The notes under the pieces are model-generated. The model had not been told where the DNA came from and ran no database searches. It saw only the letters and a list, made by a program, of their open reading frames with translations. The translations under genes and the position numbers were made by a program. 64,000 bases of DNA from assembly GCF_000482325.1 (NCBI RefSeq), contig NZ_AXVA01000019.1, forward strand, positions 62,001 to 126,000, read 5' to 3'. This DNA comes from Bacillus sp. UNC438CL73TsuS30 (lineage in GTDB: Bacteria; Bacillota; Bacilli; Bacillales; Cytobacillaceae). Of the stretch, positions 3,963 through 62,216 are shown piece by piece (the stretch's first letter is position 1; each line of letters begins with the position of its first letter).

Positions 3963-4015
3963 GTCCATGTGGAATGGACAAATCAACCGTTTTGTCCACA
4001 AACGGTGCCTGTCAC
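3963..4015 (-). repeat. 53-bp palindromic repeat, copy 1 (arm inverted)
   Basis: Read on the minus strand it begins GTGACAGGCACC and contains GGACAAA and TTTGTCC, spaced as in the other copies. The last 17 bases read GTCCATTCCACATGGAC, the reverse complement of the tail seen in most copies. An extra GTGAC stands 14 bp outside, as in several other copies. Confidence 0.85.
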
Positions 4016-4111
4016 CTTATTCTGTCACTATATTGAAAAAAGTTCTTTTATTTACCGCAAAATTCAGTAAAATGGATGGAGAGTATATTTGTAGCGGTGG
4101 GAGAGATTTCT

Positions 4112-5572
4112 ATGTCGATGAGTATCCCGATTTTTGGTAATGGAAATGAATTGGTCTTATATAATCCTGATGAATTAATTGACCTGTTTCTCAATTGTAC
4201 AGCAGACGGATTTGCGATCGTCGATATGGAAAATCGATTCATTCGCATAAACCCCGTGTATACACAAATTTTCGGTTATACAGTGGAAGATGTTATTGGA
4301 AAGAGGTTTGATGATTTTCCACATTCTGATTTAGTGAAGGAAATTATTGAAGAGGTCAAACTAGGCAAATCGTTTACCAATATGATTACTCAATGGTTTC
4401 ATAAAGATGGCACGGCCCTTGACATATCCGTTTCCTATTCGCCTTTTCGAAATTCGAATGGTGAAATGATCGCCATTATTGCGACTTATCGTGATATTAC
4501 ACATACCGTTTTAATGGAAAAGGAGTTAAAACGAACACGTGAATTGTATAAATTAATTACGGAAAATACAACCGATATGATAAAAGTTTATTCAAAGGAT
4601 TATGATATTCTCTATGCTTCCCCATCCCATGAACAAAGAATTGGATACACTCCCGAACAATTAGTGGGCAGAAGTATATTTGATTTGGTTTTTCCTGAGG
4701 AAATGGAAGATTTCAAAAAGATGTTTCAAAAAATAGAGGAAACAGGGGAATCCCAAGTTTTTCAAGTGAAAATGAAGACAAGTACGAACGAAATTATTCA
4801 TTCTGAATCCAATATTAGTCCAATTTTTAATGAAAAAAAAGAAGTTGAATCATATGTCACGGTAGGAAGGGATATAACCGAGAGAGTGAACAATGATGCT
4901 GCGTTTCGGAATTTGGATAGACTATCCATCATCGGACAATTAGCGGCAGGTGTTGCCCATGAAATCCGAAATCCGTTAACCTCTTTAAAGGGGTTCTCCA
5001 AACTTTTAAGAAGTACAGCAAATAAGGAAAAGAATGACCAATACTTATCAATTATTATGAATGAATTAGACCGGATTGATATGATTGTGAATGAGTTTAT
5101 GTCCTTAGCAAAACCACAAGCAATCCATTTTGAACGGGAACAGTTAATATCAATCTTGGACAGCACCATTAACGTACTGCATCCACAGGCACTCTTGCAT
5201 GGAGTAGAAATCAAAATAAATTATCCAACTGACCATGTTGAGATTAATTGCAGTCTGCATCAGCTTAAACAAGTATTCGTTAACTTTTTGAAAAATGCAA
5301 TAGAAGCCATGCCAAAAGGCGGGACTGTACATATTAATGTAGAAAAAGTGAACCGCAATCGAGTCGTGATTTACTTTACGGATGAAGGTGTGGGGATTGA
5401 ACAGGAACGCTTGAATTACCTAGGAACACCCTTTTACACCACAAAAGATAAAGGAATTGGACTCGGATTAACCGTTAGCAATAAAATCATCCAAGAACAT
5501 TGTGGAACAATGAAAATACAAAGCCAACTCGGTGTCGGCACAACCATCACCGTAGAATTGGACTGTTTATAA
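4112..5572 (+). CDS. Soluble PAS-PAS sensor histidine kinase (sporulation-kinase-like)
   Basis: A 486-residue kinase without membrane helices, hence cytoplasmic. Order: PAS domain about residues 20-135 (GYTVEDVIGKRFDDF, then VSYSPFRNSNGEMIAI), second PAS about 140-260 (GYTPEQLVGRSIFDL, YVTVGRDITER), HisKA with phospho-accepting His283 in VAHEIRNPLTSLKGF, and an HATPase domain with NFLKNAIEAM, DEGVGIEQE and GIGLGLTVSNKI. This architecture matches the Bacillus KinA/KinE group that feeds phosphate to Spo0F; that role is inference. The ATG at 4112 follows GGGAGAG; an in-frame ATG at 4076 has no clear site. No partner response regulator is adjacent, which also fits an orphan phosphorelay kinase. 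Confidence 0.85.
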   Translation: MSMSIPIFGNGNELVLYNPDELIDLFLNCTADGFAIVDMENRFIRINPVYTQIFGYTVEDVIGKRFDDFPHSDLVKEIIEEVKLGKSFTNMITQWFHKDGTALDISVSYSPFRNSNGEMIAIIATYRDITHTVLMEKELKRTRELYKLITENTTDMIKVYSKDYDILYASPSHEQRIGYTPEQLVGRSIFDLVFPEEMEDFKKMFQKIEETGESQVFQVKMKTSTNEIIHSESNISPIFNEKKEVESYVTVGRDITERVNNDAAFRNLDRLSIIGQLAAGVAHEIRNPLTSLKGFSKLLRSTANKEKNDQYLSIIMNELDRIDMIVNEFMSLAKPQAIHFEREQLISILDSTINVLHPQALLHGVEIKINYPTDHVEINCSLHQLKQVFVNFLKNAIEAMPKGGTVHINVEKVNRNRVVIYFTDEGVGIEQERLNYLGTPFYTTKDKGIGLGLTVSNKIIQEHCGTMKIQSQLGVGTTITVELDCL

Positions 5573-5610
5573 ATTTAAAAGTGACATCATAAAAAAGGTG
5601 ACAAAAAAGA

Positions 5611-5663
5611 GTGACAGGCACCGCCCGTGGACAAATTGGTTATATTGTCCATGTGGGGTGGAT
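5611..5663 (+). repeat. 53-bp palindromic repeat, copy 2
   Basis: Starts GTGACAGGCACC and ends GTCCATGTGGGGTGGAT. Two further GTGAC boxes precede it at 5581 and 5598. It lies between the sensor kinase stop and the convergent ykuK gene. Confidence 0.88.
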
Positions 5664-5684
5664 AATGCTGTTTTTCGCCTGTTT

Positions 5685-5735
5685 GCCTGACTCTCAGGGC
5701 GCTTGGTTAGCGTGCTGGGTGTCAGGCTTTTATTT
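5685..5735 (+). terminator. Possible terminator hairpin between kinase and ykuK genes
   Basis: GCCTGAC (5685-5691) can pair with GTCAGGC (5721-5727) followed by TTTTATTTT. The loop is long and partly self-complementary (GCGCTTGGTTAGCGTGC), so this is a weaker call than the other hairpins. Confidence 0.4.
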
Positions 5736-6260: not shown

Positions 6261-6513
6261 CTGGAAGCACCACATCTTCCTTTTTCAGCAGAATAAACCG
6301 CTTTTATTTCTATCTTATGGAAAAAGTTTTTATGACGTGCAACTGAGAATGATCTTAAAAAAGAGTGAAATTTTTATAAGGGAGCAATAACATATCGGAA
6401 GAAAATTTGTTTGTTTTTAGGAAGAATATACTAAAAAATCATATAATTGTTAAAATGGGATTAGAAAGAAGTGGTACCTTAAAGATATTTTTATACAGAA
6501 AGGGGCGAGATTA

Positions 6514-7590
6514 GTGACCAAGCGGAAAGTAAAACAGAATGAGTTTGAATTTTTAAAGCGGGAACTTCAGTTTTTAGAGGATTCAGAGACTATCCCCAGG
6601 GGGAAGGCCAAAGAAATTCAAGAGTTATATAAAGTGGAGGAAAAGCTATCTTTTACAAAAACTCTCTTATATGTTGGGTCCATTTTGATTGGGGTAGGGA
6701 TTCTTAGTTTTATCGCCAGCAATTGGAGTGAAATTGGAAAGACGATTAAGCTTCTGTTTATTCTCTGTTTGTACCTTGGATGCAACTTTGCTGGATTCAA
6801 GCTGGAAAAAAGCTTACCAAAAACATCTAGAAGCTTTTATTATCTGGGTGTGATGGTTTTCGGAGCGGGAATATTCCTGATTGGACAAATGTTCCACTTT
6901 GGCGGCAGTTTTCAGGGGGCTTTTTTATGGTGGACCATTGGCATTTTGCCTTTAACCTGGGTGCTGCGGGATAAATGGATGCTCCTTGTTTCTGCTTTGT
7001 TTACCCTTATTTATATGCTGGATGAACCGTTCCTTCAAGGAGATCGTATCCCAATTTGGACGATTCTGTTGATAGCGGTCATTTATTTCCTGAATGAAAA
7101 AATTGGTTTTTCGCGAACAGTAGGGTTTGTGAATGGGCTGCAACAGCTTGTATTTATCAGCACGGTTATTACCTTCTTTATCGGAGGAGACGATGAGTTC
7201 CTATATCTTTATGGGTTAATCTATTTAGCTCTTGGCATTGCGCTTATTCTTAGAAGATCAAAAATTAGAGATGTCTATGTTTTATTGGGACACCTTATTC
7301 ATGGAATCGCCGCTCTGATGCTATCCTTCGAGGATGTCTGGCCTTCTTCGATTGATTGGGTGTATATTCCGTTTTCAATTCTTTACCTGATTTTTGTACT
7401 ATTTTTAGTGAATCGGGGCAGTTTGTTTAGCATTGTGATTCTTTGCGGACTGATTTTCCGGTTTTATATCGACCTATCATTTGATTTTCTGCCAAAATCG
7501 CTTGTGTTTATCATAGGCGGACTTCTCCTGCTTGGATTTGGTTTTTATTTTGAAAAACAGAGGAAAAAAGGGGGGAGTGTTCATGAATAA
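6514..7590 (+). CDS. DUF2157-family polytopic membrane protein
   Basis: A 358-residue protein with a short cytoplasmic N terminus (about 50 residues, charged) followed by about ten hydrophobic segments. The opening motif, KLSFTKTLLYVGSILIGVG then LSFIASNWSEIGKTIKL, is typical of DUF2157 proteins. Function is not established in the family. The GTG start at 6514 follows AAAGGGG. The stop overlaps the start of the next gene by 8 bp, so the two are translationally coupled. DUF2157 and GDYXXLXY proteins often occur together, which suggests a shared membrane role. Confidence 0.82.
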   Translation: MTKRKVKQNEFEFLKRELQFLEDSETIPRGKAKEIQELYKVEEKLSFTKTLLYVGSILIGVGILSFIASNWSEIGKTIKLLFILCLYLGCNFAGFKLEKSLPKTSRSFYYLGVMVFGAGIFLIGQMFHFGGSFQGAFLWWTIGILPLTWVLRDKWMLLVSALFTLIYMLDEPFLQGDRIPIWTILLIAVIYFLNEKIGFSRTVGFVNGLQQLVFISTVITFFIGGDDEFLYLYGLIYLALGIALILRRSKIRDVYVLLGHLIHGIAALMLSFEDVWPSSIDWVYIPFSILYLIFVLFLVNRGSLFSIVILCGLIFRFYIDLSFDFLPKSLVFIIGGLLLLGFGFYFEKQRKKGGSVHE

Positions 7591-8134
7591 GCAGACGCGG
7601 GGAAAGCAGTTGATATTGGCTTGCTTGGTACCGGTGGTCATTCTCCTTGGTATGTGCTTTACCCCTTTATTTACTTTGATGACCGGGAAAGAAATCATTC
7701 TTCAAACCATTCCAGTTGACCCAACGGATTTGTTTCGGGGAGACTATGTAACCCTTCGGTATGAAGCGGAGGAGGTCCCGAAGGAGTTGGTGGAAGAGGA
7801 AGTGGTAAATAAAATGAAAGATGGGCGGGGTGGAATCAAGGTATACGTGACGTTGAAGAAAAAGAATGGAATCGACACCCCGGTCAAGGTCTCACTTGTA
7901 AAACCAAAATCGGGCGCTATATATCTAAAAGGAACCTTGGACTATATTGGGGATAATCGGGACCAAAATGAAGTTGCCTTCATTCAATACAGCCTGGATA
8001 AATATTTTGTTGAGGATAACACAGGAATGGATTGGGAAGCGGCCTCAGTAAAAGGAGAAATCCTAGCCACAGCCAAAGTCAAAAACGGCTATGCGATCCT
8101 AACCGGAATCGAAAAAAAGCGACCAAAAAAGTGA
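7583..8134 (+). CDS. GDYXXLXY-family membrane-anchored protein
   Basis: 183 residues. One N-terminal membrane segment (LILACLVPVVILLGMCF) is followed by an extracytoplasmic domain carrying the family hallmark, here FRGDYVTLRYE at about residues 51-61. Start ATG 7583 follows GGGGGGAG and overlaps the DUF2157 stop. Family function is unknown. The stop codon TGA (8132-8134) lies inside a copy of the 53-bp repeat: the gene's last codons run straight into GTGACAGG, so the repeat probably defines the present C terminus (KKRPKK). Confidence 0.82.
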   Translation: MNKQTRGKQLILACLVPVVILLGMCFTPLFTLMTGKEIILQTIPVDPTDLFRGDYVTLRYEAEEVPKELVEEEVVNKMKDGRGGIKVYVTLKKKNGIDTPVKVSLVKPKSGAIYLKGTLDYIGDNRDQNEVAFIQYSLDKYFVEDNTGMDWEAASVKGEILATAKVKNGYAILTGIEKKRPKK

Positions 8135-8183
8135 CAGGCACCGTACGTGGACAAATGGCTATTTTTGTCCGCGTAGGGTGGAC
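8131..8183 (+). repeat. 53-bp palindromic repeat, copy 3 (supplies a stop codon)
   Basis: Begins GTGACAGGCACC, contains GGACAAA and TTTGTCC, ends GTAGGGTGGAC. Its second to fourth bases are the TGA stop of the GDYXXLXY gene. Confidence 0.9.
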
Positions 8184-8300: not shown

Positions 8301-9971
8301 ATGTTTTTGCAAAGAGAGGTTACAGAAAAAATAGGATTATTTGAGTCTTTAAGTCTTTTAGAAGTGGAATGTGTTTTTGGGTGTGATGACCGCTGCCTGC
8401 TTCTAGGTGTTGACCAATCAAACATTCGATATGTTCAGTTAAATCATGAACAGGCTGCAGTTCATGCAGCGGATGGCTTTGCCCGAGCGACAGGGAAACC
8501 CGGTGTGGTTCTCCTATCAAACGCTGCCGGAGTAACTAACGCAATTACAGGAATTGCAACGGCTTATAGCGATTCAGTACCCCTTGTCCTTATCACGGGT
8601 CCGCTTGTAGCTAAACCGCAAATTAAGGAAGCATTTCAAGATTTGGATGTTTTGGGAATCACGATGCCGATTACAAAGTACTCTTTTAAGCAGAAGGATT
8701 GGGAATGTTTATCCGAGGCGCTGCAAAATGCTTTAACCATAGCAGAAGAGGGCAGACCCGGTCCCGTTTTAATCGAATATGCGGCGGGGCCTTTAACGAA
8801 TAATCAGGATAGACTTCTAAGTTATCCGCGTCCTCGAAGTCACATAAGTAAGGGACAGATGGAAAAATCGATTGAATCGGCCGCAGAATTGATTGAAGCT
8901 GCAAGGAAACCGGTTCTATTTATTGGCGGTGGAGTGATTTCTTCCGGCGCAGCCAACTTTTTAAGGGGAATTGTTCGGCAGGCTCGAATACCGGTAGTCA
9001 GCTCCCTTATGGGAATTGGTGCGATGGAGGCTGCAAATCCGCTGTACTTGGGAATGCTGGGGATGCATGGAACTTTTGCTGCAAATAAAGCTGTTCACCA
9101 ATGTGATTTACTGATTAGTATCGGGGTCCGTTTTAGTGACCGGGTCACAGGGAAAATCAGTGGGTTTTCACCAAAATCAAAAAAAATCCATGTCGATGTG
9201 GATCCGGCTGAAATCAATAAGATCATTGCGGTAGACCTGCCAATTGTGAGTGATGCAAAAGAGTTTCTTTGCGAGCTTAAAGGGCGGTTAGATTATCAGC
9301 AGATTTTAAGAAATGTTGAAATTTGGACGAATGAAGTAATTGGGTGGAAGCGGACAGTGCCGAGATTTGACAAGTCTCATAGTCTTCTTAGCCCGCAGAC
9401 AGTGATAAAAAAGCTGTGTGAATATTCAGCTCAAGATACAATCGTTGTTACGGATGTGGGACAGCATCAAATTTGGACAGCACATCATTATGCTTTCACA
9501 ACCCCTAGAACATTGATTACATCAGGCGGTTTAGGAACAATGGGGTATGGGCTGCCGGCGGCAATTGGTGCAGCTGCGGCATGTCCGGGAAAGCCGGTCC
9601 TTTGTGTATCCGGTGACGGCAGCTTTCAAATGAACCTGCAGGAATTAATCATAGCAGTAAGATATCAACTTCCGATCAAGATTGCGATCCTTAATAATGG
9701 ATACCTTGGTATGGTTCGTCAGTGGCAGGAGCTCTTTTACCATGGACGCTATTCTTCCGTAAAAATTGGCTCACCAAGTTTTGCAAAACTGGCAGAGGCT
9801 TATGGCGTTCCCGGATATGAGGCTCGGACCGAGGAGGAAGTTGAACGGGTGATAGCAGAGGCTTTTCAGCACAGCGGCCCAGCTTTAATAGAATTCGATG
9901 TAATAGAAGAGGAAAATGTATACCCAATGGTACGGCCCAACCATAGCAACCACCAAATCATCCTAGAGTGA
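8301..9971 (+). CDS. Acetolactate-synthase-like ThDP-dependent enzyme
   Basis: A 556-residue member of the acetohydroxyacid synthase catalytic family. Seen: the ThDP-activating glutamate in NHEQAAVHAADGFARATGK, the central FAD-type domain with RFSDRVTGKISGFSPKSKK, and the ThDP-Mg site GDGSFQMNLQELIIA with NNGYLGMVRQWQELFY. The last motif is typical of biosynthetic acetolactate synthases. Oddity: the N terminus is short and lacks the usual GxPGG loop (here FGCDDRCLLLGVDQSN), so an early deletion or a divergent substrate loop is likely. No ilvN-type regulatory subunit is adjacent. Start ATG 8301 follows AGGTGAAGG. It could be a paralogue with another 2-keto-acid substrate. Confidence 0.78.
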   Translation: MFLQREVTEKIGLFESLSLLEVECVFGCDDRCLLLGVDQSNIRYVQLNHEQAAVHAADGFARATGKPGVVLLSNAAGVTNAITGIATAYSDSVPLVLITGPLVAKPQIKEAFQDLDVLGITMPITKYSFKQKDWECLSEALQNALTIAEEGRPGPVLIEYAAGPLTNNQDRLLSYPRPRSHISKGQMEKSIESAAELIEAARKPVLFIGGGVISSGAANFLRGIVRQARIPVVSSLMGIGAMEAANPLYLGMLGMHGTFAANKAVHQCDLLISIGVRFSDRVTGKISGFSPKSKKIHVDVDPAEINKIIAVDLPIVSDAKEFLCELKGRLDYQQILRNVEIWTNEVIGWKRTVPRFDKSHSLLSPQTVIKKLCEYSAQDTIVVTDVGQHQIWTAHHYAFTTPRTLITSGGLGTMGYGLPAAIGAAAACPGKPVLCVSGDGSFQMNLQELIIAVRYQLPIKIAILNNGYLGMVRQWQELFYHGRYSSVKIGSPSFAKLAEAYGVPGYEARTEEEVERVIAEAFQHSGPALIEFDVIEEENVYPMVRPNHSNHQIILE

Positions 9972-9979
9972 CCACTAAG

Positions 9980-10032
9980 GTGACAGGCACCCTTCGTGGA
10001 CAAAAGGTCATCTTTGTCCGTGTGGGGTGGAC
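9980..10032 (+). repeat. 53-bp palindromic repeat, copy 4
   Basis: GTGACAGGCACC at the left, TTTGTCCGTGTGGGGTGGAC at the right. The preceding gene's stop TGA (9969-9971) is itself part of an extra GTGAC box 12 bp before the repeat. Confidence 0.9.
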
Positions 10033-13339: not shown

Positions 13340-13392
13340 GTGACAGGCACCGTTCGTGGACAAATTAGCGATTTTGTCCGTGTGGAGTGGAC
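13340..13392 (+). repeat. 53-bp palindromic repeat, copy 5
   Basis: A near-consensus copy: GTGACAGGCACC, GTTCGTGGACAAA, 8-nt spacer, TTTGTCC, GTGTGGAGTGGAC. An extra GTGAC box starts 15 bp upstream at 13325. Confidence 0.92.
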
Positions 13393-13406: not shown

Positions 13407-13446
13407 AAGGATGCTCTTGTAAAAAGGGCATCCTTGGTTTGTTTTT
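13407..13446 (+). terminator. Rho-independent terminator of the permease operon
   Basis: AAGGATGC pairs with GCATCCTT around an A-rich loop, followed by GGTTTGTTTTTT. Confidence 0.75.
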
Positions 13447-15126: not shown

Positions 15127-15179
15127 GTGACAGGCACCGTTCGTGGACAAAAGGTCAATATTGTCCGTGTGGAGGAGAC
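15127..15179 (+). repeat. 53-bp palindromic repeat, copy 6
   Basis: GTGACAGGCACC with GTTCGTGGACAAA; tail GTCCGTGTGGAGGAGAC. An extra GTGAC starts 11 bp upstream, right after the yerD-like stop codon. Confidence 0.9.
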
Positions 15180-16798: not shown

Positions 16799-16851
16799 GT
16801 GACAGGCACCGCTCATGGACAATTCCCATATTTTGTCCGTGTGAGGTGGAC
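16799..16851 (+). repeat. 53-bp palindromic repeat, copy 7
   Basis: GTGACAGGCACC, GCTCATGGACAAT, TTTGTCCGTGTGAGGTGGAC. Unlike most copies it lies between divergent genes (DinB and alpha-galactosidase), so it is not restricted to 3' ends. Confidence 0.88.
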
Positions 16852-16937: not shown

Positions 16938-19127
16938 ATGCCAATTGAGTGGAATGAACAAGATGGAATCTTTCATTTATATAATAATAAGGTCAGTTAT
17001 TTAATCCAGATTGTGCATGGGAAGTATCCCGCCCATTTATACTGGGGAAAGCGGGTGGAAACAAAGCAGGCTGCGGCCATTCTTTCCTTTAAGGGAAGGG
17101 CATTTTCGCCATCAACAGAACCGGCCTATCCGCAATTTTCACTAGATACACTACCACAGGAGTATCCGGCGTTTGGCAACGGGGACTTCCGCTCACCAAG
17201 CTATCAACTCCAAACCGCTGATGGATCCACGATTACAGAATTCGTCTACGACTCCCATGAAATTTTTCAAGGAAAACGTCCTTTAAACGGACTGCCGGCT
17301 TCCTATGTAGAAGCTGAATCAGAAGCCGAAACCCTCGTGATTACATTGGTAGATTCCAAGCTTGGGATTGGTCTCCATCTTCAATATTCTATCTATCGGG
17401 ACTTCGAAGTCATCACAAGATCCACTGCAGTTGAGCACCTCGGATCCCAACAAGTAAAAATCTTAAAGTGTATGAGTATGTCGGTAGATTTCCATCAAGC
17501 CGATTGGGACCGGCTGCATCTTCACGGCACCTGGGGGCGAGAGCGTCATATTGAGCGAAAGCCACTGTACCACGGGACGCAAATGATTTCATCAGCAAGA
17601 GGGGCAAGCAGCCACCAGCATAATCCGTTTATCGCCCTGCTCTCAAAAAATGCAGACGAGGACCACGGGGATGTTTATGGGATCAGCCTCGTTTACAGCG
17701 CGAATTTTCAAGCCTCCATCGAAGTGGACCCGTTTCAAAGCGCACGGCTTGCCATGGGCATCAATTCCTTTGATTTTACATGGCTGTTGAATCCGAGAGA
17801 AACTTTTCAAGCCCCTGAGGCATTAATGGTTTATTCAAATGAAGGTCTCGGCGGGATGTCCCGAATCTTTCATAAATTTTTAAGAAAAAGAGTTTGCCGT
17901 GGTGCTTATCGTGATCAAACGAGGCCAGTCTTAATCAATAATTGGGAAGCTACTTATTTCAATTTTAATGAAAAAAAATTAAAGGCCATCGCTGATGCAG
18001 GAAAAGAATTGGGAATTGGGCTGTTTGTTCTGGATGATGGCTGGTTTGGACATCGGGACAATGCAAAAAGTTCATTGGGGGATTGGGTGGTCGATAAGAG
18101 GAAACTGCCTAATGGACTAGAGGGCTTAGAAGAATATCTTCGAAAAAAGGGAATGAAGTTTGGATTATGGGTGGAGCCGGAAATGGTTTCACCGGATAGT
18201 AACCTGTACAGGGAGCATCCGGATTGGTGCCTGCATGTGCCTGACAGGAAACGGACACCGTCGAGAAATCAATTAGTGCTGGATTTAAGCAGGGAAGACG
18301 TATGCAATTATTTAATCAATACCTTAACAGCAGTTTTTCAAAGTGCCCAAATCGCTTATGTTAAATGGGATATGAATCGTAATATGACGGAGGTGGGTTC
18401 CGCAGCACTGCCGCCTGAAAGGCAAAGGGAAACCGCTCACCGTTATATGCTGGGACTTTATCGGATCTTAGAGAGGCTGACTGAACGTTTTCCTGATATC
18501 TTATTTGAAAGTTGTTCCGGGGGCGGCGGCAGGTTTGACCCAGGCATGCTTTATTACATGCCGCAAACCTGGACAAGTGATGATACGGATGCTGCCGAGC
18601 GGTTAAAAATTCAATACGGAACGAGCCTGCTCTATCCCGCTATCACTATAGGCTCCCATGTTTCAGATGTGCCAAACCATCAAGTGGGCAGGACAACACC
18701 TCTCCTAATGAGATGCCATGTGGCGATGGCGGGGAATCTTGGCTTTGAATTAAATATCGATAAGCTGAGCGGGGATGATAAGAAATTGGTCGCGGAACAG
18801 ATCAAACAGTATCATAAAATCAAGGAGTTGGTTTGTTTTGGGGATCTTTACCGGCTGATTAGTCCCTTTGCTGGTACGGATTCAGCCTGGATGTATGTTT
18901 CAGAGGATAAAATAAAAGCAGTCTTGTTTTATTTTAAAACCATGGCAACTCCAAATCCACCCTTCCAGCGTGTGAAATTACGGGGGTTGGAGGCTAAAAA
19001 AAGGTATAAACTCAACAATGGGAATCGAGAGTATTTTGGCAGCGAACTCATGCAAATCGGGCTTAACCTGCCGCTGATAAAAAATGACTTTTCATCGTGC
19101 TTATTCTATATCGAAGCAACACAGTGA
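16938..19127 (+). CDS. Alpha-galactosidase, glycoside hydrolase family 36
   Basis: 729 residues, the usual length of tetrameric bacterial GH36 enzymes that release galactose from melibiose and raffinose-type sugars. The (beta/alpha)8 domain begins near RPVLINNWEATYF. The nucleophile is Asp478 in KWDMNRNMTEV and the acid/base Asp548 in TSDDTDAAERLKIQYG. CSGGGGRFDPGMLYYMPQTW and VSDVPNHQVGRTTPL are further family motifs. No signal peptide, so cytoplasmic. ATG 16938 follows AAGGGGGAT. It lies upstream of a sugar-sensing two-component system and mglBAC. A second GH36 gene is at 52535; they align throughout but differ clearly, so they are old paralogues. Confidence 0.93.
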   Translation: MPIEWNEQDGIFHLYNNKVSYLIQIVHGKYPAHLYWGKRVETKQAAAILSFKGRAFSPSTEPAYPQFSLDTLPQEYPAFGNGDFRSPSYQLQTADGSTITEFVYDSHEIFQGKRPLNGLPASYVEAESEAETLVITLVDSKLGIGLHLQYSIYRDFEVITRSTAVEHLGSQQVKILKCMSMSVDFHQADWDRLHLHGTWGRERHIERKPLYHGTQMISSARGASSHQHNPFIALLSKNADEDHGDVYGISLVYSANFQASIEVDPFQSARLAMGINSFDFTWLLNPRETFQAPEALMVYSNEGLGGMSRIFHKFLRKRVCRGAYRDQTRPVLINNWEATYFNFNEKKLKAIADAGKELGIGLFVLDDGWFGHRDNAKSSLGDWVVDKRKLPNGLEGLEEYLRKKGMKFGLWVEPEMVSPDSNLYREHPDWCLHVPDRKRTPSRNQLVLDLSREDVCNYLINTLTAVFQSAQIAYVKWDMNRNMTEVGSAALPPERQRETAHRYMLGLYRILERLTERFPDILFESCSGGGGRFDPGMLYYMPQTWTSDDTDAAERLKIQYGTSLLYPAITIGSHVSDVPNHQVGRTTPLLMRCHVAMAGNLGFELNIDKLSGDDKKLVAEQIKQYHKIKELVCFGDLYRLISPFAGTDSAWMYVSEDKIKAVLFYFKTMATPNPPFQRVKLRGLEAKKRYKLNNGNREYFGSELMQIGLNLPLIKNDFSSCLFYIEATQ

Positions 19128-19254: not shown

Positions 19255-19307
19255 GTCTACTCCACACGCACAAATTTTGCCATTTGTCCACGAACGGTGC
19301 CTGTCAC
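19255..19307 (-). repeat. 53-bp palindromic repeat, copy 8
   Basis: Minus-strand copy: GTGACAGGCACC, GTTCGTGGACAAA, tail GTGCGTGTGGAGTAGAC, with two substitutions in the tail arms. Confidence 0.88.
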
Positions 19308-27457: not shown

Positions 27458-27493
27458 TACGGAGCCTTAATACGGAGCCTTAATACGGTGCCT
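27456..27493 (+). repeat. Three tandem 13-bp units behind mglC
   Basis: AATACGGAGCCTT at 27456-27468 and 27469-27481, then AATACGGTGCCT at 27482-27493, which runs into the 53-bp repeat copy. The first unit includes part of the mglC stop codon. Confidence 0.8.
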
Positions 27494-27540
27494 GACACCG
27501 TTCGTGGACTTTTACCTTGATTTGTCCACGTGTGACGGAC
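27488..27540 (+). repeat. 53-bp palindromic repeat, copy 9 (first module inverted)
   Basis: The region from GTTCGTGGAC to the terminal GGAC fits the family at the usual spacing, but the first 12 bases read GTGCCTGACACC. With the preceding G this is close to the reverse complement of GTGACAGGCACC. Confidence 0.75.
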
Positions 27541-27570
27541 ACATCTGAAACGAATACAATATTGATCACA

Positions 27571-32349: not shown

Positions 32350-32477
32350 GGATTATCACCTTATTTTTTAGATAAATATTACCAATATCTAGAATCGAAA
32401 ACAATTAAACTTGAAAAAATAATTCTATTACTATATATTGATTCTATTGAGAAATAAAACAACTACATATTGTATTA

Positions 32478-32665
32478 GCCTTAAGTTAGGATGCCGTACG
32501 GCTTAAAAGGGAATCTGGTGAGAATCCAGAGCTGCCCCCGCAACTGTAAATGCAGACGAAATGAGCGATGACCACTGTATAAGTTTCTTGTGAAAACAGG
32601 TGCTTATACGGGAAGGGCTCAGAGTAGGGAGAAGCATGAGTCAGGAGACCTGTCCTAATTTGAGA
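32478..32665 (+). promoter_or_regulatory. Cobalamin (B12) riboswitch
   Basis: Typical class elements in order: AGGGAATCTGGTGAGAATCC, AGCTGCCCCCGCAACTGTA, and near the 3' side the B12 box GAGTCAGGAGACCTGTCCT (32638-32656). It lies 150 bp before the reductase gene, with a terminator at 32762 as likely expression platform. Known action: adenosylcobalamin binding turns such leaders off. Confidence 0.92.
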
Positions 32666-32761
32666 TGTTTCACTTCCTCGGGGATTGGGAGCTGGAACGG
32701 TGGCAAATTAGGATCAGGAAGGCATATTTACCTTGTATCCTCTTTTCTGTTGTCGTTTCAT

Positions 32762-36234: not shown

Positions 36235-36702
36235 ATGAAGTTAGCCATCGTTTATACCTCGATTACAGGGAATACGAAAGAACTCGCAACGATTTTAGGG
36301 GAATTAATCAAGGGCTATGACTTAGATGTTCAGTTGTTTACAATTGAAGAGTTTCCTCTATGGCAATTAAGTCATTTTGACGCGGTTGTAGTCGGAACGT
36401 ATACATGGGGAAACGGAGAAATTCCCGGAGAGATGCTGCCTTTGTATAGGGCATTTGAGAACCAGGATACCCATTCAATCGTAACGGGTGTATTCGGTAC
36501 AGGGGATCAATTTTATCCACATTATTGCGGGGCCGTCGACAAGTTCCGGGATATGCTTTATGTTCAAAGTGAATTGGCGGTTACCCTAAAGGTGGAGTTA
36601 ACACCTCAGCTCCAGGATCTTAAACGGTGTCGAAAGTTTGCAGAACTACTGATGTGGCGGTTGCGACAAAACTGTCCATCTGGAATGAACAAAATAAGCT
36701 AA
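36235..36702 (+). CDS. Flavodoxin, probably the reductase activase
   Basis: 155 residues: the FMN-phosphate loop YTSITGNTKE, then VVGTYTWGNGEIPGEM and VFGTGDQFYPHYCGAVDKF, a short-chain flavodoxin. AGGAGGAG precedes ATG 36235, 12 bp after the small-subunit gene. In class Ib systems the flavodoxin-like NrdI activates the manganese cofactor of NrdF; this protein looks like a standard flavodoxin but its position suggests the same job (inference). The last ~10 codons (RQNCPSGMNKIS region) are encoded by a minus-strand copy of the 53-bp repeat and its flank, so the C terminus was remade by the repeat. Confidence 0.85.
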   Translation: MKLAIVYTSITGNTKELATILGELIKGYDLDVQLFTIEEFPLWQLSHFDAVVVGTYTWGNGEIPGEMLPLYRAFENQDTHSIVTGVFGTGDQFYPHYCGAVDKFRDMLYVQSELAVTLKVELTPQLQDLKRCRKFAELLMWRLRQNCPSGMNKIS

Positions 36703-36726
36703 ATGTCCACGAAGGGTGCCTGTCAC
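36674..36726 (-). repeat. 53-bp palindromic repeat, copy 10 (arm inverted, overlaps a gene)
   Basis: On the minus strand: GTGACAGGCACC, CTTCGTGGACATT, then tail GTTCATTCCAGATGGAC, the inverted form also seen at 3963. It overlaps the last 29 bp of the flavodoxin gene. Confidence 0.82.
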
Positions 36727-36763
36727 CCATGTGAATTCTTCACATGGTGACAGGCATCTTTTT
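36717..36763 (+). terminator. Terminator built from repeat sequence behind the reductase operon
   Basis: TGCCTGTCACC (36717-36727) pairs with GGTGACAGGCA (36746-36756), with an inner ATGTGAA/TTCACAT stem and a TCTTTTTG tail. The left arm is the first module of the 53-bp repeat, the right arm a second inverted copy of that module. Confidence 0.85.
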
Positions 36764-36821
36764 GTATTTGTTGAATTATTTTCCAAAAATGTATTGTTAT
36801 GATTTGGAAATTATAATATAC

Positions 36822-36841
36822 TACATTACAACACTAATGTA
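36822..36841 (+). promoter_or_regulatory. Putative operator of the second GntR regulator
   Basis: TACATTA (36822-36828) and TAATGTA (36835-36841) form a perfect inverted repeat with a six-base spacer. It lies just after a TATAAT box (36812-36817) and before the regulator gene, which fits autorepression. Confidence 0.55.
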
Positions 36842-36865
36842 CTGTGTTAGGGGAGGAGGAGAAGG

Positions 36866-37246
36866 GTGATTCCTCATTTGGATGGATCGAAGCCAATTTA
36901 TGTTCAGATATCAGAGTGGCTGGAGACTGAAATTTTGAACGAAAATATTGAAAAGGATCAAAAAATTTACTCCCAGTACCAGCTAGCGGAGATGTTTAAC
37001 ATTAATCCAGCGACAGCAGCAAAGGGCCTCAATTTATTGGCTGATGAAGCAATTCTCTATAAGAAACGCGGTCTGGGGATGTTTGTTGCAGACACCGCAA
37101 AGGACAAAATTCTAAAAAGACGCAAAAGCCAAACACTAAAGCGCTTGGTTTCTGAAATCGTTATCGAAGCCGCAAGACTCAATGTAAGCAAGGATGAATT
37201 AATTGAAATGATCAGAAAGGAAGAAATAGGGGAGGAAGAGGAATGA
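36866..37246 (+). CDS. GntR-family (YtrA-type) transcriptional regulator
   Basis: 126 residues: winged HTH (PIYVQISEWLETEIL, YSQYQLAEMFNINPATAAKG, LYKKRGLGMFVAD) and a short C-terminal helical tail. GTG start at 36866 after GGGGAGGAGGAGAAGG. It overlaps the next gene in an ATGA junction. It heads the second GntR/ABC module of the window and probably represses it in the absence of an inducer. Confidence 0.87.
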   Translation: MIPHLDGSKPIYVQISEWLETEILNENIEKDQKIYSQYQLAEMFNINPATAAKGLNLLADEAILYKKRGLGMFVADTAKDKILKRRKSQTLKRLVSEIVIEAARLNVSKDELIEMIRKEEIGEEEE

Positions 37247-39590: not shown

Positions 39591-39643
39591 GTGACAGGCA
39601 CCGTTCGTGGACATTTTCGTGATTTTGTCCTCCTGTGGTGGAC
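39591..39643 (+). repeat. 53-bp palindromic repeat, copy 11
   Basis: GTGACAGGCACC, GTTCGTGGACATT, TTTGTCCTCCTGTGGTGGAC. It begins five bases behind the stop codon of the preceding gene. Confidence 0.9.
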
Positions 39644-52300: not shown

Positions 52301-52342
52301 GACCAGGATATGGAATTTGAGTTTATGATTCAGAGAATCTAG
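49313..52342 (+). CDS. lacZ: Beta-galactosidase LacZ, glycoside hydrolase family 2
   Basis: 1009 residues, full length for the LacZ type, with sugar-binding, immunoglobulin-like, TIM-barrel and C-terminal beta-galactosidase small-chain domains. Catalytic residues: acid/base Glu458 in WSCGNESYAGE and nucleophile Glu525 in YISCEYMHAMGNSLGG. FKGVNRHEFNCRRGRAV and VRTSHYPNQSDWYELCDEYG are further family motifs, and MGVGGDDSWGAPVHDEY closes it. ATG 49313 follows AGGAAGG; an ATG at 49286 directly after the permease stop lacks a site. No signal peptide. Cotranscribed with the ABC genes; cleaves imported beta-galactosides to galactose. Confidence 0.93.
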   Translation: MTTIPTINWLTDVNVFAVNRLPAHSDHKYYETVEEAKSTVPMAMRHVLNGDWKFNYAVNPASRPESFFKKDFDCSGWGNITVPGHIQLQGYGKPQYVNTMYPWDGHNEIRPPEIPMDHNPVGSYVKMFHLPDKMKNKPVFISFQGVESAFYVWLNGEFVGYSEDSFTPAEFELTPFLIEGENKLAVEVYQRSTGSWLEDQDFWRFSGIFRDVYLYTVPEIHVQDLFVRTELDKSFLKGDLTADLKFLSGPPAKIVAELYDAMDRLVVSVNGSLAGDKGSISLSVDAPKLWSAEDPYLYKLYVQVFNEEDQLVEVVPQIVGFRRFELVNKIMHLNGERIVFKGVNRHEFNCRRGRAVTKEDMLWDIKTLKQNNINAVRTSHYPNQSDWYELCDEYGIYVIDEMNLETHGSWQKMGAVEPSWNIPGNRHEWQEIVMDRAISMVERDKNHPSILIWSCGNESYAGEVILNVSRYFKSVDPSRLVHYEGVFHNRDYNETSDMESRMYAKPADIEKYLSENPEKPYISCEYMHAMGNSLGGMHKYTELERKYPMYQGGFIWDYIDQSIMKKDRYGQEFLAYGGDFDDRPTDYGFCTNGIVYANRELSPKMQEVKFLYQNLKLTPGRNGVTITNENLFIDTSDYDLEYVLHLEGKELYRKKLDFVVAPLSDGRVEFDWPKDIASAAGEYCVHVFCRLKEKQLWADAGYEIAFGQYVFNGESLIETPQPEGEIRVVHGDVNIGVHGRGFSAIFSKQAGSLISLNYAGKEMIAYPPAPLFWRATTDNDRGFSQDYHSGVWYMASLARKCVGFEVEEMEGFVTISFTYKFSISDAAEVKVAYRVYPDGSIRVKSSYHGVENLPEMPTFAFAFKVPADYDQLEWYAMGPEENYADRNNGARLGLFKNTVADNLSGYVMPQESGNRTGVRRVNLTNQDGQGIRISSVSEPLECNFSPYTAFELENAKHHYELPNIHYTVVTIAGKQMGVGGDDSWGAPVHDEYLIRPDQDMEFEFMIQRI

Positions 52343-52354
52343 AAAAAGTTGATA

Positions 52355-52448
52355 CGCAAATAAATATGGTTCATTCGCAAATAAAGGTAATACATTCGCA
52401 AATAAAAAAAGTTAATTCGCAAATAAAACTAAAAAAATCGCAAATAAA
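52355..52448 (+). repeat. Five CGCAAATAAA boxes at exact 21-bp spacing
   Basis: CGCAAATAAA begins at 52355, 52376, 52397, 52418 and 52439, each mostly preceded by ATT or AT. The 11-bp intervals differ in sequence, so only the boxes are conserved. It lies between the lacZ stop and its terminator. Confidence 0.9.
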
Positions 52449-52479: not shown

Positions 52480-52534
52480 GCTATAAGAATCCCTTTATTT
52501 TGTATATCAACCAAAGAAGAGATAGGTGAAAGAT

Positions 52535-54763
52535 ATGTTAATCCATGTAAATCAAGAAACCAAGCAATTTCATTTAACCAATGGCCAAGTAAGTTATATT
52601 TTTCATGTGATGAAAAATGGCCAGCTTGGCCACCTATATTATGGGAAGGGATTAAGGCATCGATCGGATTTTTCGCATTTGCAAACCTATGATGTTCCAA
52701 CTGCTGCAAGCTGTCATCCATATGCGGATGACCCTGCCTTTAGCTTGGAAACATTACGGCAGGAGTACCCGGCCTACGGTAATTCCGATTTTCGTGAACC
52801 TGCTATTAGTATCAGTAGACACGACGAACATCATATTCCAAACTTTCAATATCAAACTTTTAAAATACTAGACGGAAAACCAAGACTCGAGGGGCTGCCG
52901 GCAACATATGTTGAAGACGTGCAAGTTGCCAGTACGCTTCAACTCCTCTTAAAGGATGACCACCTTCAAGCGGAGTTGACGTTAAATTATACAATATTCC
53001 GCTGCCTTCCCGTTATTGCGAGAAGTGCTCAGGTAGTGAATGTTGGCTCGCAGAAATTAGTCATTGATCGGATGATGGGAGCCTCGATTGATCTACCCGA
53101 TAAAGATTTTAAATTTGTCCACTTAGCAGGGACGTGGTCGCGTGAACGTCATGTTAAGGAACGAAAGCTAGAAGCGGGTATTCAGTCCATTTCCAGTCTG
53201 CGCGGTGCCAGTTCCCATCACCATAATCCGTTTTTAGCCTTAAAAAGGCCGCATACAACAGAGAATTCCGGTGAAGTTTATGGCTTTAATTTTGTCTACA
53301 GCAGTAATTTTATCATGCAGGCAGAGGTGGACCATTATGATGTGACGCGGGTGATGGCAGGGATTCATCCATTTGGTTTTAAGTGGGGGCTTATGCCGCA
53401 GGATTCTTTCCAAACCCCGGAGGTTGTAATGGTGTACTCTGCCCAAGGTTTAAATGGGATGAGTCAAGCTTTTCATTCGCTTTATAGGGAGCATCTGATT
53501 CGGGCTCAGTGGAAGAAGCAAGACCGCCCGATTTTGATAAATAACTGGGAAGCCACCTATTTTGACTTTAATGAGGAAAGGCTCGTAAACATCGCAAAAT
53601 CAGCGAAGGAATTAGGAATTGAATTGTTTGTCCTTGATGATGGCTGGTTTGGAAAAAGAAATGACGATACGACCTCGCTAGGTGATTGGGATGTAGATTT
53701 CAATAAGCTTCCGAATGGGCTAGAAAGCTTGGCGGAGAAAATTAATGGGCTGGGAATGAAATTTGGGCTTTGGTTTGAACCGGAAATGATTAGTCCCGAC
53801 AGCGATTTATATCGGGAGCATCCTGACTGGGCTGTAGGGATGCCCCATTTACCGCAAACGCTTGGCCGTAACCAGCTTGTACTTGATTTTTCAAGGCCAG
53901 AAATTGTTGAATATCTTTATGAAAAAATGTCCAATATCATCAGGCGGACAAACCTTTCTTATATTAAGTGGGATATGAATCGGAATATTACGGAGGCGTT
54001 TTCGCAAAGACTTGCTGCAAACCAGCAGGGTGAATTTTTCCATCGTTATATATTAGGTGTTTATCGATTATACGAGCGGTTGACTGCTGTATTTCCTGAG
54101 GTACTGTTTGAATCCTGTGCTGGAGGCGGAGGGCGATTTGATCCTGGGATGATGTATTATGCGCCGCAAGCTTGGACGAGTGATGATACGGATGCGGTCG
54201 AAAGGCTGAAAATCCAATACGGAACATCGTTCGCCTATCCAATTTATAGTATGGGGTCACATGTATCGGCTGTCCCGAATCACCAAACGTTACGGTTAAC
54301 CCCTTTATCTACCAGGGCAAACACAGCCTACTTTGGAACTTTTGGGTATGAACTAAATCCATTGTCATTAACGGATCAAGAGCGGGAAGAAATTAAAGAG
54401 CAGGTTGTTTTTTATAAACAGCATCGCAGGTTGGTACGCGACGGCCATTATTATCGTCTGTTAAGTCCGTTTGAAGGGAATGAAACGGCTTGGATGATTG
54501 TGAGCCCGGATAAATCGGAGGCGTTAGTTGGCTGGTATAAGGTGTTAGCCACACCGACCTCCTTGAAGCAGCAAACAGTAAAACTAATGGGGTTAGACCC
54601 ATCGAAATTCTATAGTGTATTTGGACGGGATCAGATTTTTTATGGAGATGAGCTCATGCAGGTGGGACTTCAACTTTCAACGGAATTTAATGGTGTTAAT
54701 AGGGATTCCGCAGAACGTGGCGGCGACTATCAATCCCAGGTTTTTTATTTATCAGGTAAGTGA
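52535..54763 (+). CDS. Alpha-galactosidase, glycoside hydrolase family 36 (second copy)
   Basis: 742 residues. Same architecture as the gene at 16938: TIM barrel from RPILINNWEATYFDFNEE, nucleophile Asp480 in YIKWDMNRNITEAF, acid/base Asp550 in TSDDTDAVERLKIQYG, plus CAGGGGRFDPGMMYYAP and VSAVPNHQTLRLTPL. Cytoplasmic. ATG 52535 follows AGGTGAAAG; an in-frame GTG at 52526 is part of that site. It lies behind a terminator after lacZ, so it may have its own promoter. Co-location with the ABC transporter suggests that raffinose-type sugars enter by the same system. Confidence 0.93.
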   Translation: MLIHVNQETKQFHLTNGQVSYIFHVMKNGQLGHLYYGKGLRHRSDFSHLQTYDVPTAASCHPYADDPAFSLETLRQEYPAYGNSDFREPAISISRHDEHHIPNFQYQTFKILDGKPRLEGLPATYVEDVQVASTLQLLLKDDHLQAELTLNYTIFRCLPVIARSAQVVNVGSQKLVIDRMMGASIDLPDKDFKFVHLAGTWSRERHVKERKLEAGIQSISSLRGASSHHHNPFLALKRPHTTENSGEVYGFNFVYSSNFIMQAEVDHYDVTRVMAGIHPFGFKWGLMPQDSFQTPEVVMVYSAQGLNGMSQAFHSLYREHLIRAQWKKQDRPILINNWEATYFDFNEERLVNIAKSAKELGIELFVLDDGWFGKRNDDTTSLGDWDVDFNKLPNGLESLAEKINGLGMKFGLWFEPEMISPDSDLYREHPDWAVGMPHLPQTLGRNQLVLDFSRPEIVEYLYEKMSNIIRRTNLSYIKWDMNRNITEAFSQRLAANQQGEFFHRYILGVYRLYERLTAVFPEVLFESCAGGGGRFDPGMMYYAPQAWTSDDTDAVERLKIQYGTSFAYPIYSMGSHVSAVPNHQTLRLTPLSTRANTAYFGTFGYELNPLSLTDQEREEIKEQVVFYKQHRRLVRDGHYYRLLSPFEGNETAWMIVSPDKSEALVGWYKVLATPTSLKQQTVKLMGLDPSKFYSVFGRDQIFYGDELMQVGLQLSTEFNGVNRDSAERGGDYQSQVFYLSGK

Positions 54764-54765: not shown

Positions 54766-54948
54766 GGCGACAATTTTGGTATGGTAGCGAGGTAAAATGT
54801 CGCGTATAAGCTCGATAGGGGTCAAAATCAGGTTTAACTAGAGTAGAGGTGTCGCGTATAGGGCCGATAGGCGACAAAACCGGGTTGATCCAGAATAAAA
54901 ATGTCGCCAATAGCCAGGATAGGCGACAATTTAAGCCAAATAGTCGCC
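54766..54948 (+). repeat. 52-bp-period array of TGTCGC / GCGACA hairpin units
   Basis: TGTCGC starts at 54798, 54850 and 54902; GGCGACAA (or a variant) starts at 54766, 54818, 54870 and 54922. Both sets are exactly 52 bp apart. Each TGTCGC...GCGACA pair can fold into a hairpin. This array, a terminator and the gal promoter fill the 343-bp gap 54764-55106. Confidence 0.88.
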
Positions 54949-57280: not shown

Positions 57281-57285
57281 AAAAA

Positions 57286-58761: not shown

Positions 58762-58779
58762 ACGAAGGAGCAACAATCC

Positions 58780-59829: not shown

Positions 59830-60831
<1,002 letters not shown>

Positions 60832-60833
60832 AC

Positions 60834-60865
60834 GCATGGAACGTTTAGTTCCATGCATTTTTTTG
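60834..60865. terminator. Terminator of the gal operon
   Basis: GCATGGAAC (60835-60843) pairs with GTTCCATGC (60849-60857), followed by ATTTTTTT. It lies 9 bp from the end of the convergent DedA gene. Confidence 0.85.
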
Positions 60866-60872
60866 ATTAATT

Positions 60873-61475
60873 TCAAGGAGTTCTTAATCTTATTCTTCTT
60901 TTTCGCTGATAGGTATAAATAATAATGGTGACCAGAATGAAAAGGATGATTAAAATAATGCTGTATCTCGAAAAATACCCTGCGACAGCTGTCCAATTTT
61001 CTCCCAATATCCTTCCTAAAGTAATAAAGCTAAAACACCAAATCACTGCACCCGAATAAGCAAATAAGACAAACTTTTTATAGGTATAGCGATTAATCCC
61101 GGCAAGATAGGCGGTAATATGGCGGATTCCGGGAATAAAAAAGCCAATCAACAAGAGGAAGGGTCCCATTTTCATAAATAATTTTTTCGTTCGATTCACT
61201 CGTTCTTCTGTAATATGCAGCTTCGGCCCATAACGATTTAAAAAAGGCACCCCTAATTTTACTCCTAAGAAATAGCTTAATGTGATCCCCCCGCAAGCTC
61301 CGGCTGCGGCACAAAGAAGGGAAGGGATGTAGCTAAGGTTTCCTTGAAAAACGTTATATCCCACATAGGTAAGAAGAACCTCATCTGGAATCGGCAGTCC
61401 AATAATACCGCCAATTAAGGCGATAATAATTCCCATGTATCCGAAATGAGCAATTAAGTAACTTAGTTGATGCAT
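60873..61475 (-). CDS. DedA-family membrane protein
   Basis: 200 residues, five to six hydrophobic stretches. Family motifs: GLPIPDEVLLTYVGY, the glycine-rich GACGGITLSYFLG and the helical hairpin RHITAYLAGINRYTYKKF after FIPGI. Recent work links DedA proteins to recycling of undecaprenyl phosphate or phospholipid scrambling (family knowledge); a role here is not shown. Minus strand, GGAAG upstream of ATG. Confidence 0.87.
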   Translation of the reverse strand: MHQLSYLIAHFGYMGIIIALIGGIIGLPIPDEVLLTYVGYNVFQGNLSYIPSLLCAAAGACGGITLSYFLGVKLGVPFLNRYGPKLHITEERVNRTKKLFMKMGPFLLLIGFFIPGIRHITAYLAGINRYTYKKFVLFAYSGAVIWCFSFITLGRILGENWTAVAGYFSRYSIILIILFILVTIIIYTYQRKRRIRLRTP

Positions 61476-61690
61476 GTTTTTAACACTTCCAGTTAGATTT
61501 ATAATTTCTTACCCATGTATTTTTCCTAAAATGAATCGGGATATACAATTTGTTTTTGTTTGATCATTTATTGTGAGGGGAGGAAATGGAGGGAATCTTC
61601 GCTCCCTATAGACAATATACTAGAAGTGAATAAAAACACGGTAATTGTTTTATTTTTTATAAAGTTTTATTGGAATTAGGGGGGATAACG

Positions 61691-62158
61691 ATCGATAACC
61701 TATTTATGAAAGAGGCTGTTGATATTGCTCTTAACAATGTGCTGACAAACAGCGGGGGTCCGTTCGGTGCCGTTATTGTTAAAAACGGAAAGGTTATTAG
61801 CATGGGTCGGAATCAAGTCGTGGCGGGGAATGACCCAACGGCCCATGCGGAGGTTCAAGCCATTCGGTCTGCCTGTTTGCATTTAAACACCTATGACCTG
61901 ACTGATTGCGAAATATACACAAGCTGCGAGCCATGCCCAATGTGTTTAGGAGCCATCTATTGGGCGAAAATCAAAGCCGTTTATTATGCAAATACCTCAG
62001 AGGATGCGGCCCAAATCGGCTTTAACGACCAATTTATCTATGAACAACTTTGTCTGCCAAAGAACCAGCGCACCATCCCAATGACCCAAATCCTCACACA
62101 AAACTACCAACAACCCTTCCAAGCCTGGCAGCAAACCTCCGCCAAAACACGATATTAA
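61691..62158 (+). CDS. guaD: Guanine deaminase (CMP/dCMP deaminase fold)
   Basis: About 156 residues. Zinc site His/Glu in DPTAHAEVQAIR and the two cysteines in TSCEPCPMCLGAIYWAK; the C-terminal FIYEQLCLPKNQRTIPM and PFQAW match GuaD of Bacillus subtilis, which deaminates guanine to xanthine. The start is unclear. AGGGGGG at 61678-61684 is an excellent ribosome binding site, but the codon six bases later is ATC (61691), preceded by ATA and ACG. The only ATG is at 61706, 21 bases away, and an in-frame TTG at 61670 lies before the site. Homologue length favours the ATC/ATA position; treat the start as provisional. Confidence 0.85.
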   Translation: MDNLFMKEAVDIALNNVLTNSGGPFGAVIVKNGKVISMGRNQVVAGNDPTAHAEVQAIRSACLHLNTYDLTDCEIYTSCEPCPMCLGAIYWAKIKAVYYANTSEDAAQIGFNDQFIYEQLCLPKNQRTIPMTQILTQNYQQPFQAWQQTSAKTRY

Positions 62159-62163
62159 CATAG

Positions 62164-62216
62164 GTGACAGGCACCGTTCATGGACTTTTCGCCTGTTTTG
62201 TCCGCATGGGGTGGAC
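62164..62216 (+). repeat. 53-bp palindromic repeat, copy 12
   Basis: GTGACAGGCACC, GTTCATGGACTTT, TTTGTCCGCATGGGGTGGAC, beginning five bases after the guaD stop codon. Confidence 0.9.

Follow-up and report, generated by a model that had tools for sequence, protein, structure and literature searches.

A 53-bp REP-like Repeat of Neobacillus and Its Probable Link to a RAYT-like Transposase Encoded beside a ComM/YifB Gene

Introduction

A stretch of 64,000 nucleotides from Bacillus sp. UNC438CL73TsuS30 (hereafter the window; positions 62001-126000 of contig C12 in the strain's own 5.6 Mb genome, G000, of the genus Neobacillus) harbors a 53-bp palindromic repeat in twelve copies, which raises the question of what kind of element this is and which enzyme, if any, handles it. 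An earlier note on the window took the repeat for a small mobilised element resembling a repetitive extragenic palindrome (REP) or a miniature inverted-repeat transposable element (MITE), moved by an enzyme encoded elsewhere. The REP-like part of this proposal is supported, since genes for a REP-associated tyrosine transposase (RAYT) have a repeat upstream in 27/30 loci, but its MITE and recent-mobility part is not, with empty sites in 0/34 and 0/11 comparisons. Overall, the 53-mer is probably (at roughly 0.72) a REP-like Neobacillus DNA element, about one half of an inverted REP pair, recognised by a RAYT that is encoded beside a ComM/YifB gene.

Copies in the Window and in the Genus

All twelve copies in the window were confirmed in position and strand, and so was their gap-free alignment. 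They are given below together with their state in G002, the closest of the 61 genus genomes when proteins are compared (ORF, open reading frame).

3963..4015, - strand: repeat copy, present in G002
5611..5663, + strand: repeat copy, stop codon 38 nt before, predicted terminator at 5698, present in G002
8131..8183, + strand: repeat copy, its GTGAC supplies the TGA that ends the upstream ORF, present in G002
9980..10032, + strand: repeat copy, stop codon 8 nt before, G002 ortholog with one change in the head
13340..13392, + strand: repeat copy, stop codon 24 nt before, predicted terminator at 13407, present in G002
15127..15179, + strand: repeat copy, stop codon 12 nt before, present in G002
16799..16851, + strand: repeat copy, with a gene start on either side, preceding the melibiase gene, present in G002
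19255..19307, - strand: repeat copy, downstream of the melibiase gene, present in G002
27488..27540, + strand: repeat copy, inverted head GTGCCTGACACC, stop codon 30 nt before, predicted terminator at 27570, present in G002
36674..36726, - strand: repeat copy, 29 nt shared with the 3' end of an ORF, present in G002
39591..39643, + strand: repeat copy, stop codon 5 nt before, present in G002
62164..62216, + strand: repeat copy, stop codon 5 nt before, outside the G002 DNA compared

A covariance model, partly trained on the window copies, recovers 12/12 of them. The pattern GGACAAA-N8-TTTGTCC with at most two mismatches has 11 matches in the window vs 0.31 expected; nine of the 11 are repeat copies, and those at 6883 and 35593 are not. 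The statement that no copy interrupts a gene holds insofar as none lies inside a gene of the window, but three copies overlap ORFs: those at 8131 (4 nt of the ORF end), 36674, and 19255 (24 nt of the next ORF from its listed TTG start). The copy at 16799 is flanked by two gene starts.

Further copies do exist elsewhere in the genome. The model gives 54 matches in G000 at E < 1e-5, 55 at E <= 1e-3 and 57 with stricter filters and E <= 0.01, and the pattern of head plus GTGGAC, allowing two mismatches, gives 42. Only 2 of the 54 copies fall inside a called ORF; hence, the repeat is a short extragenic palindrome present in many copies. The model finds 2 to 62 copies in each of 58 of the 60 Neobacillus genomes searched and none in the other two (G006 and G046).

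Anatomy of the Repeat

The following counts refer to 39 exact-motif copies of the own genome. The GTG/CAC of the head is constant in all 39, GTGGAC (positions 17-22) and GTCC (37-40) are almost constant, and RNAalifold predicts two hairpins, GTG/CAC and GTGGAC/GTCC(G/A)(T/C). The 7-bp stem GGACAAA/TTTGTCC described earlier is exact in 4/12 window and 12/39 genome copies, and 8/12 window copies have it with at most one mismatch; AAA is found at positions 23-25 in 19/39 copies, and the inner AAA/TTT pairs are formed in 18-23 of 39. Its 8-nt spacer does differ between copies but is partly constrained, with G at position 28 in 28/39. The fixed length is a property of this lineage, whereas relatives show model matches of 49-50 nt. 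Conservation stops at position 54 (A in 34/39, position 55 being mixed), and CA occupies positions 53-54 in 33/39 copies. Of the additional GTGAC boxes reported outside the repeat, a full GTGAC lies within 25 nt upstream in 13/39 copies and GTGA in 22/39. GTGG is present at positions 17-20 in 37/39 copies, yet it forms part of the predicted stem.

A structured RNA is not supported: covariation of the stem, expected in the earlier note, is not in excess (two-sided change in 2 pairs vs 1.8 in shuffles), and the Rfam scan of the window returned no match to it.

Both orientations of the head are found. Relatives often have a central spacer of 1-3 nt (GTGGACACTGTCC and the like), and full inverted pairs of the form head-GTGGACA-loop-TGTCCAC-head, seen as overlapping matches on both strands, are present in G058, G018, G027 and G059. 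The copies of the own genome bear a GGTGGACA-like end in place of the right-hand head, so each of them amounts to about half a REP pair. Judging by this comparison, the 53-mer seems to derive from a REPIN-like pair (REPIN being an inverted pair of REPs), with a long loop and a single head.

The head is shared by a second palindrome family, CGACAAAA-TCGGG-head, which with at most one mismatch has 59 forward and 59 reverse matches in G000. It is a near-perfect palindrome with a GGTG-N5-CACC centre and has 0-2 matches in 12 other genomes, a set to which G002 does not belong. Many of its copies lie at C3:2.7-73 kb around a truncated Y1 transposase gene, others elsewhere (L033, L292). This distribution suggests a lineage-specific amplification, a reading tempered by the copy in locus L124, for which G002 has no empty site and holds one decayed look-alike.

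The Candidate Enzyme and Its Linkage to the Repeat

A gene of the REP-associated tyrosine transposase type, envisaged as the partner of such an element, was found outside the window, within a repeat cluster. The Y1_Tnp domain (PF01797) occurs four times in G000: near full-length at C5:268135 and C3:159071, in an ORF ending after 85 codons at C3:57660, and in one fragment with a stop. The candidate is as follows.

G000 C3:159038-159610: RAYT gene, directly upstream of the ComM/YifB gene

Its product matches Pfam Y1_Tnp at 3e-14. TnpA-REP (4er8) is its sole sequence match in the PDB at E <= 0.01 (E 0.0045) and the top fold match of its structural model (E 1.2e-4; the model is weak, pLDDT 59). 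Residues H60, H62 and Y119, which we take to be the catalytic HxH motif and tyrosine, are invariant in an alignment of 13 orthologs and one paralog, 14 sequences in all. Taken together, the profile matches (of which that to NCBIfam REP_Tyr_transpos stays under its cut-off), the PDB sequence match and the model point to a RAYT-like protein with a predicted Y1/HUH fold. Homologs (E 1e-10) are encoded in 56 of the 60 genus genomes. Plasmid carriage and a role in defence were both set aside. RAYT-like matches in nine plasmid records are all below 60% identity, and the Sporomusa record has no yifB annotated in the 8.6 kb covered. PADLOC gives no match to RAYT and three weak ones to YifB.

The linkage between the enzyme gene and the repeat is seen at several levels. 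Around the own RAYT, seven model matches lie within ~8 kb, the nearest repeat being 577 bp upstream. In the 27/30 RAYT loci mentioned above (own genome included), the repeat is on the same strand and at most 1.5 kb upstream; in 18/30 it is within 300 bp. In six of the 12 loci with no repeat within 300 bp, a head hairpin lies 42-125 bp upstream; in one more, it lies at 432. Loci L116, L122 and L123 have no model match; a bare head is located upstream in L116 and L122. In 20 RAYT neighbourhoods of 20 kb, 92 model matches were counted in 398 kb, a few of them being the reverse strand of the same copy.

The type of the repeat also follows the lineage of the enzyme: ACAGG and TCAGG heads are unmixed in 21/24 loci, and the majority head type changes twice on the RAYT tree vs 6.9 times when shuffled, with 0/500 shuffles as low. 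Finally, genomes with a close RAYT ortholog carry more copies (mean 34.5 in 45 genomes vs 19.1 in the 15 without, p = 3e-4); with a looser cut, the means are 33.1 (49 genomes) and 19.6 (11), p = 0.005.

The ComM/YifB Gene beside RAYT

The yifB/comM gene is situated directly downstream of the own RAYT gene, 19 nt apart. For 61 of the 65 YifB pieces of the genus, a RAYT gene is found on the same strand and no more than 1.5 kb away, one of the four unpaired pieces being in G060, a genome outside the RAYT search; seen from the other side, the pairing holds for 42 of the 47 best RAYT matches. Both gene orders are found (47 and 14). In a wider set, yifB is on the same strand within 1.6 kb in 46 of 111 RAYT loci (45 downstream, 1 upstream). 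Among the 80 named loci, pairing is found in 16/46 of Bacillota vs 0/34 of others (p = 4e-5, kinship ignored), and the paired loci include Aquibacillus, Thalassobacillus, Halobacillus, Paradesulfitobacterium, Pseudobutyrivibrio, and Tissierellia and Clostridia bins. On a quick tree, the pairing was gained or lost at least 11 times. A Bacillota plasmid record (Vescimonas) likewise has a YifB annotation, so the statement that ComM occurs almost only with RAYT is confined to Neobacillus.

In G002, the YifB partner is homologous to ComM over its full length, scoring 443.8 bits against TIGR00368 (cut-off 362.4) and matching the solved ComM structure (PDB 8rxd) over residues 12-490 at E 1.8e-91. The own YifB is above the same cut-off (389.3). 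No description of RAYT together with comM or yifB was present among the literature matches listed.

Placement at Genes

Placement was assessed with crude ORF calls, using random intergenic placements as the control. The suspected enrichment at gene 3' ends is real: 19/39 copies lie within 20 nt of the 3' end of the facing gene vs 11% of random intergenic placements (p = 6e-9), and of the 24 copies that follow a co-directional gene, 23 lie no more than 50 nt past its stop. For 5' ends, the median distance matches the random one (136 vs 135 nt), the share within 10 nt being somewhat raised (15% vs 6%).

Such placement would be expected if the repeat were a host regulatory 3'-end element, i.e., one acting in mRNA stability, translation termination or protein binding, selected site by site, with its link to RAYT being historical. 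The ordinary 5' distances, the preservation of the motifs at orthologous sites and the persistence of repeats in genomes without RAYT agree with this explanation as well. Still, an insertion preference for the vicinity of stop codons would yield the same pattern, the proximity to 5' ends is raised too, covariation is lacking, most copies have no T-run, and the same gene carries a repeat in few relatives (7/30 and 3/30 loci, see below). A host regulatory element is, on balance, an unlikely explanation.

As for the role in transcript ends that had been thought possible, intrinsic termination is not supported: at least seven T in the next 12 nt follow only 5/39 copies, and the stronger predicted terminators near the copies at 5611, 13340 and 27488 begin 15-35 nt past the repeat. 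Identification of the repeat as a terminator or RNA element was rejected on account of the rarity of the T-run and the lack of both an Rfam match and covariation.

Next to the copy at 36674, a second inverted head (window 36727-36770) gives a hairpin that resembles a terminator, with T-rich sequence after it. Absent from window 36726-36866 is a transporter-like gene that G002 has at C78:99190-100800 (L145/L146), flanked by repeat copies and similar terminators; hairpins resembling that of 36727-36770 are present on both sides of this extra gene.

Age and Conservation of the Copies

The main G002 blocks aligned with the window are 81-87% identical. Presence/absence variation, which the earlier note linked to a mobile element, was not detected: 11/11 testable window sites are shared with G002 (~83% identity), with no empty site. 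Several apparent empty sites of a first flank test were discarded, as their target places actually hold a repeat. In the orthologous copies, the head is identical at 120/120 positions in ten pairs and at 11/12 in the eleventh, the stems are 93-95% and the loop 71% identical, and the flanks are 66% identical with gaps counted as differences or 81% without gaps (583/716). There is no sign of recent movement of the window copies. The lack of an empty site, together with the 11/11 sites common to G002, indicates that these copies are old and maintained.

More distant species differ in their sites, as follows from 30 melibiase loci (own and G002 included), with a repeat up to 150 bp upstream of the gene in 7 and up to 200 bp downstream in 3; no clean empty site was found among them.

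These observations bear on the possibility that the repeat is a MITE of a DDE-type insertion sequence, with terminal inverted repeats and moved by the transposase of that sequence. It is indeed short, multicopy, intergenic and partly palindromic. However, its ends, GTGACA... and ...TGGACA, resemble each other directly and not in inverted orientation, none of the 34 comparisons gave an empty site, and the enzyme gene found beside the repeats encodes a Y1 transposase, so that a MITE is extremely improbable.

Clusters around the Origin

The map positions of 163 sampled copies from 12 genomes were expressed relative to dnaA, taken as the origin. The sample includes 30/42 copies of G050 and 21/46 of G019 among the matches listed, and those of the ten other genomes by a partial-recovery pattern; seven overlapping opposite-strand matches were left out, and several genome lengths were rounded. 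Of these copies, 146 map to the half of the chromosome nearer the origin, and clusters recur near -0.14, -0.05 and +0.08, the window representing the +0.08 cluster. In all 11 RAYT-bearing genomes of the 12, RAYT resides at a chromosomal position of -0.11 to -0.156, and in G050 and G018 the melibiase gene of the window falls in the cluster at +0.08 to +0.09. In the own genome, 41/54 copies lie within 15 kb of another one (13.4 expected; 5000 simulations gave 28 at most), and 39/54 are concentrated in 3.2% of the sequence, these regions being chosen post hoc. A bias toward one replication strand (98 vs 65 co-directional copies, p = 0.012) was not used because gene direction was left uncorrected.

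The clusters might be thought of as a chromosome-organisation signal around the origin, of which RAYT is merely one user; the origin-proximal excess, the recurrence of the clusters in 12 genomes and the concentration of own copies would fit such a signal. On the other hand, copies favour gene 3' ends, two members of the genus possess none, and the cluster at -0.14 is explicable by local copying around RAYT. A signal of this kind is therefore very unlikely to be the explanation.

A TPP-enzyme (thiamine pyrophosphate-enzyme) gene at window 8301-9971 has orthologs 2-31 kb from RAYT in G050, G036, G052 and G059; in the own genome, this gene and RAYT are on different contigs. Genes may move between repeat clusters.

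Proposed Mechanism and Its Weak Points

The reading preferred here, a REP-like element recognised by RAYT, can be outlined as follows. RAYT would be a domesticated Y1/HUH transposase and likely a caretaker of the repeats, recognising the single-strand hairpins GGTG-N5-CACC and GTGGAC...GTCC. RAYT and comM may form one operon. The enzyme could bind or nick the single-strand repeat, perhaps at the conserved CA of positions 53-54, and ComM could help to move the resulting branch. Occasional copying or conversion by RAYT and ComM would then seed new copies and keep the heads alike, with loops and flanks left to drift.

A number of points weigh against this reading. Binding, cleavage and movement of the repeat by RAYT are inferred, and so is the cause of the clustering. 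No downstream inverted REP lies within 1.5 kb of RAYT in the 30 loci (one of the 30 has a same-strand downstream match), and all 34 usable comparisons around RAYT found the site occupied. The match between head type and RAYT tree possibly reflects shared descent alone. Repeats are also retained in 13 of the 15 genomes lacking a close RAYT ortholog at the strict cut, and G018, G020, G033 and G045, with no RAYT match at E 1e-10, still have 6-30 copies. The score of RAYT against the NCBIfam family REP_Tyr_transpos (NF047646; 1.8e-18, 66.8 bits) is under the cut-off of 80. As regards the partner, G032 has 35 repeat copies and no ComM beside RAYT, and the own YifB is short, with an open frame of 438 codons vs 499-564 in most full-length matches of relatives, so it may be impaired.

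A bolder version is tentative and rather doubtful: RAYT and ComM might constitute a two-protein single-strand DNA module of Bacillota, in which RAYT nicks the hairpin repeats where single strand is exposed, ComM drives the branch, and REP heads are copied or converted between sites kept close together around the origin. If true, it would supply a missing mechanism for the spread of REPs and explain the map positions of the clusters and the near-exclusive adjacency of ComM and RAYT in the genus.

Other Features of the Window

A cobalamin riboswitch (Rfam RF00174, 118.5 bits) is located at 32472-32671. Two short tandem arrays were noticed: one at 52340-52448, with 21-nt units containing TTCGCAAATAAA, and one at 54798-54901 with 52-nt units (TGTCGCGTATA...), of which G002 apparently has more copies. 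The stretch 17600-18680 within the melibiase gene resembles 53200-54280 within ORF 52526-54763, 35.6 kb apart.

Comparison with Known Systems

Among the literature matches listed, there was no description of such Neobacillus repeats; an earlier description is possible. In the available parts of the sources, RAYTs with abundant REPs are ascribed to Gammaproteobacteria only and RAYT genes are stated to lie always between two inverted REPs (PMC2817692), an arrangement that the Neobacillus loci do not show. Tagged REPs are reported there from eight phyla, Firmicutes not being among those named, and that word is absent from the main text (PMC3733652). A further source, in the portion consulted, reports a concentration of REPs near two Marinomonas enzymes (REPtrons Ma and Mb) and cleavage at CA of a GTGG-carrying substrate, and it calls the spread of REPs in general poorly understood (PMC8266576).

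To the extent that these partial sources allow a comparison, the Neobacillus system has in common with the gammaproteobacterial RAYT/REP systems (PMC2817692, PMC8266576; E. coli TnpA-REP, 4er8) the Y1/HUH fold, predicted here, a conserved locus, a cognate hairpin beside the gene, extragenic copies and a repeat type tracking the enzyme lineage, and with Marinomonas Ma/Mb the concentration of REPs near the enzyme gene. It differs in belonging to Bacillota, in having tens of copies of a two-hairpin element with no GTAG tag and a conserved GTGG overlapping the stem, and in the repeat lying on the upstream side only, the enzyme gene adjoining comM and the clusters recurring at set distances from the origin. 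Compared with REPINs, i.e., inverted REP pairs (PMC3116915, PMC8049555, both seen in part), full inverted pairs are present in some relatives, but the own copies are one-headed, about half a pair. The GTAG/CGTC-tagged REPs (PMC3733652) share the form of a short extragenic stem-loop, and their tag has an occasional GTGG variant, but GTAG and CGTC are not conserved in Neobacillus.

ComM is a branch-migration helicase described, in the part of PMC11612176 at hand, as notably absent in Firmicutes; the G002 partner YifB is a full-length homolog of it, and what differs is that the gene adjoins RAYT here. The RAYT enzymes in the cited literature, as far as it was accessible, are proteobacterial. A Bacillota RAYT encoded beside a branch-migration helicase gene provides a concrete partner protein to test, and the genus-wide retention of repeats in recurrent origin-flanking clusters poses the question of what limits copying or retention to certain chromosomal regions.

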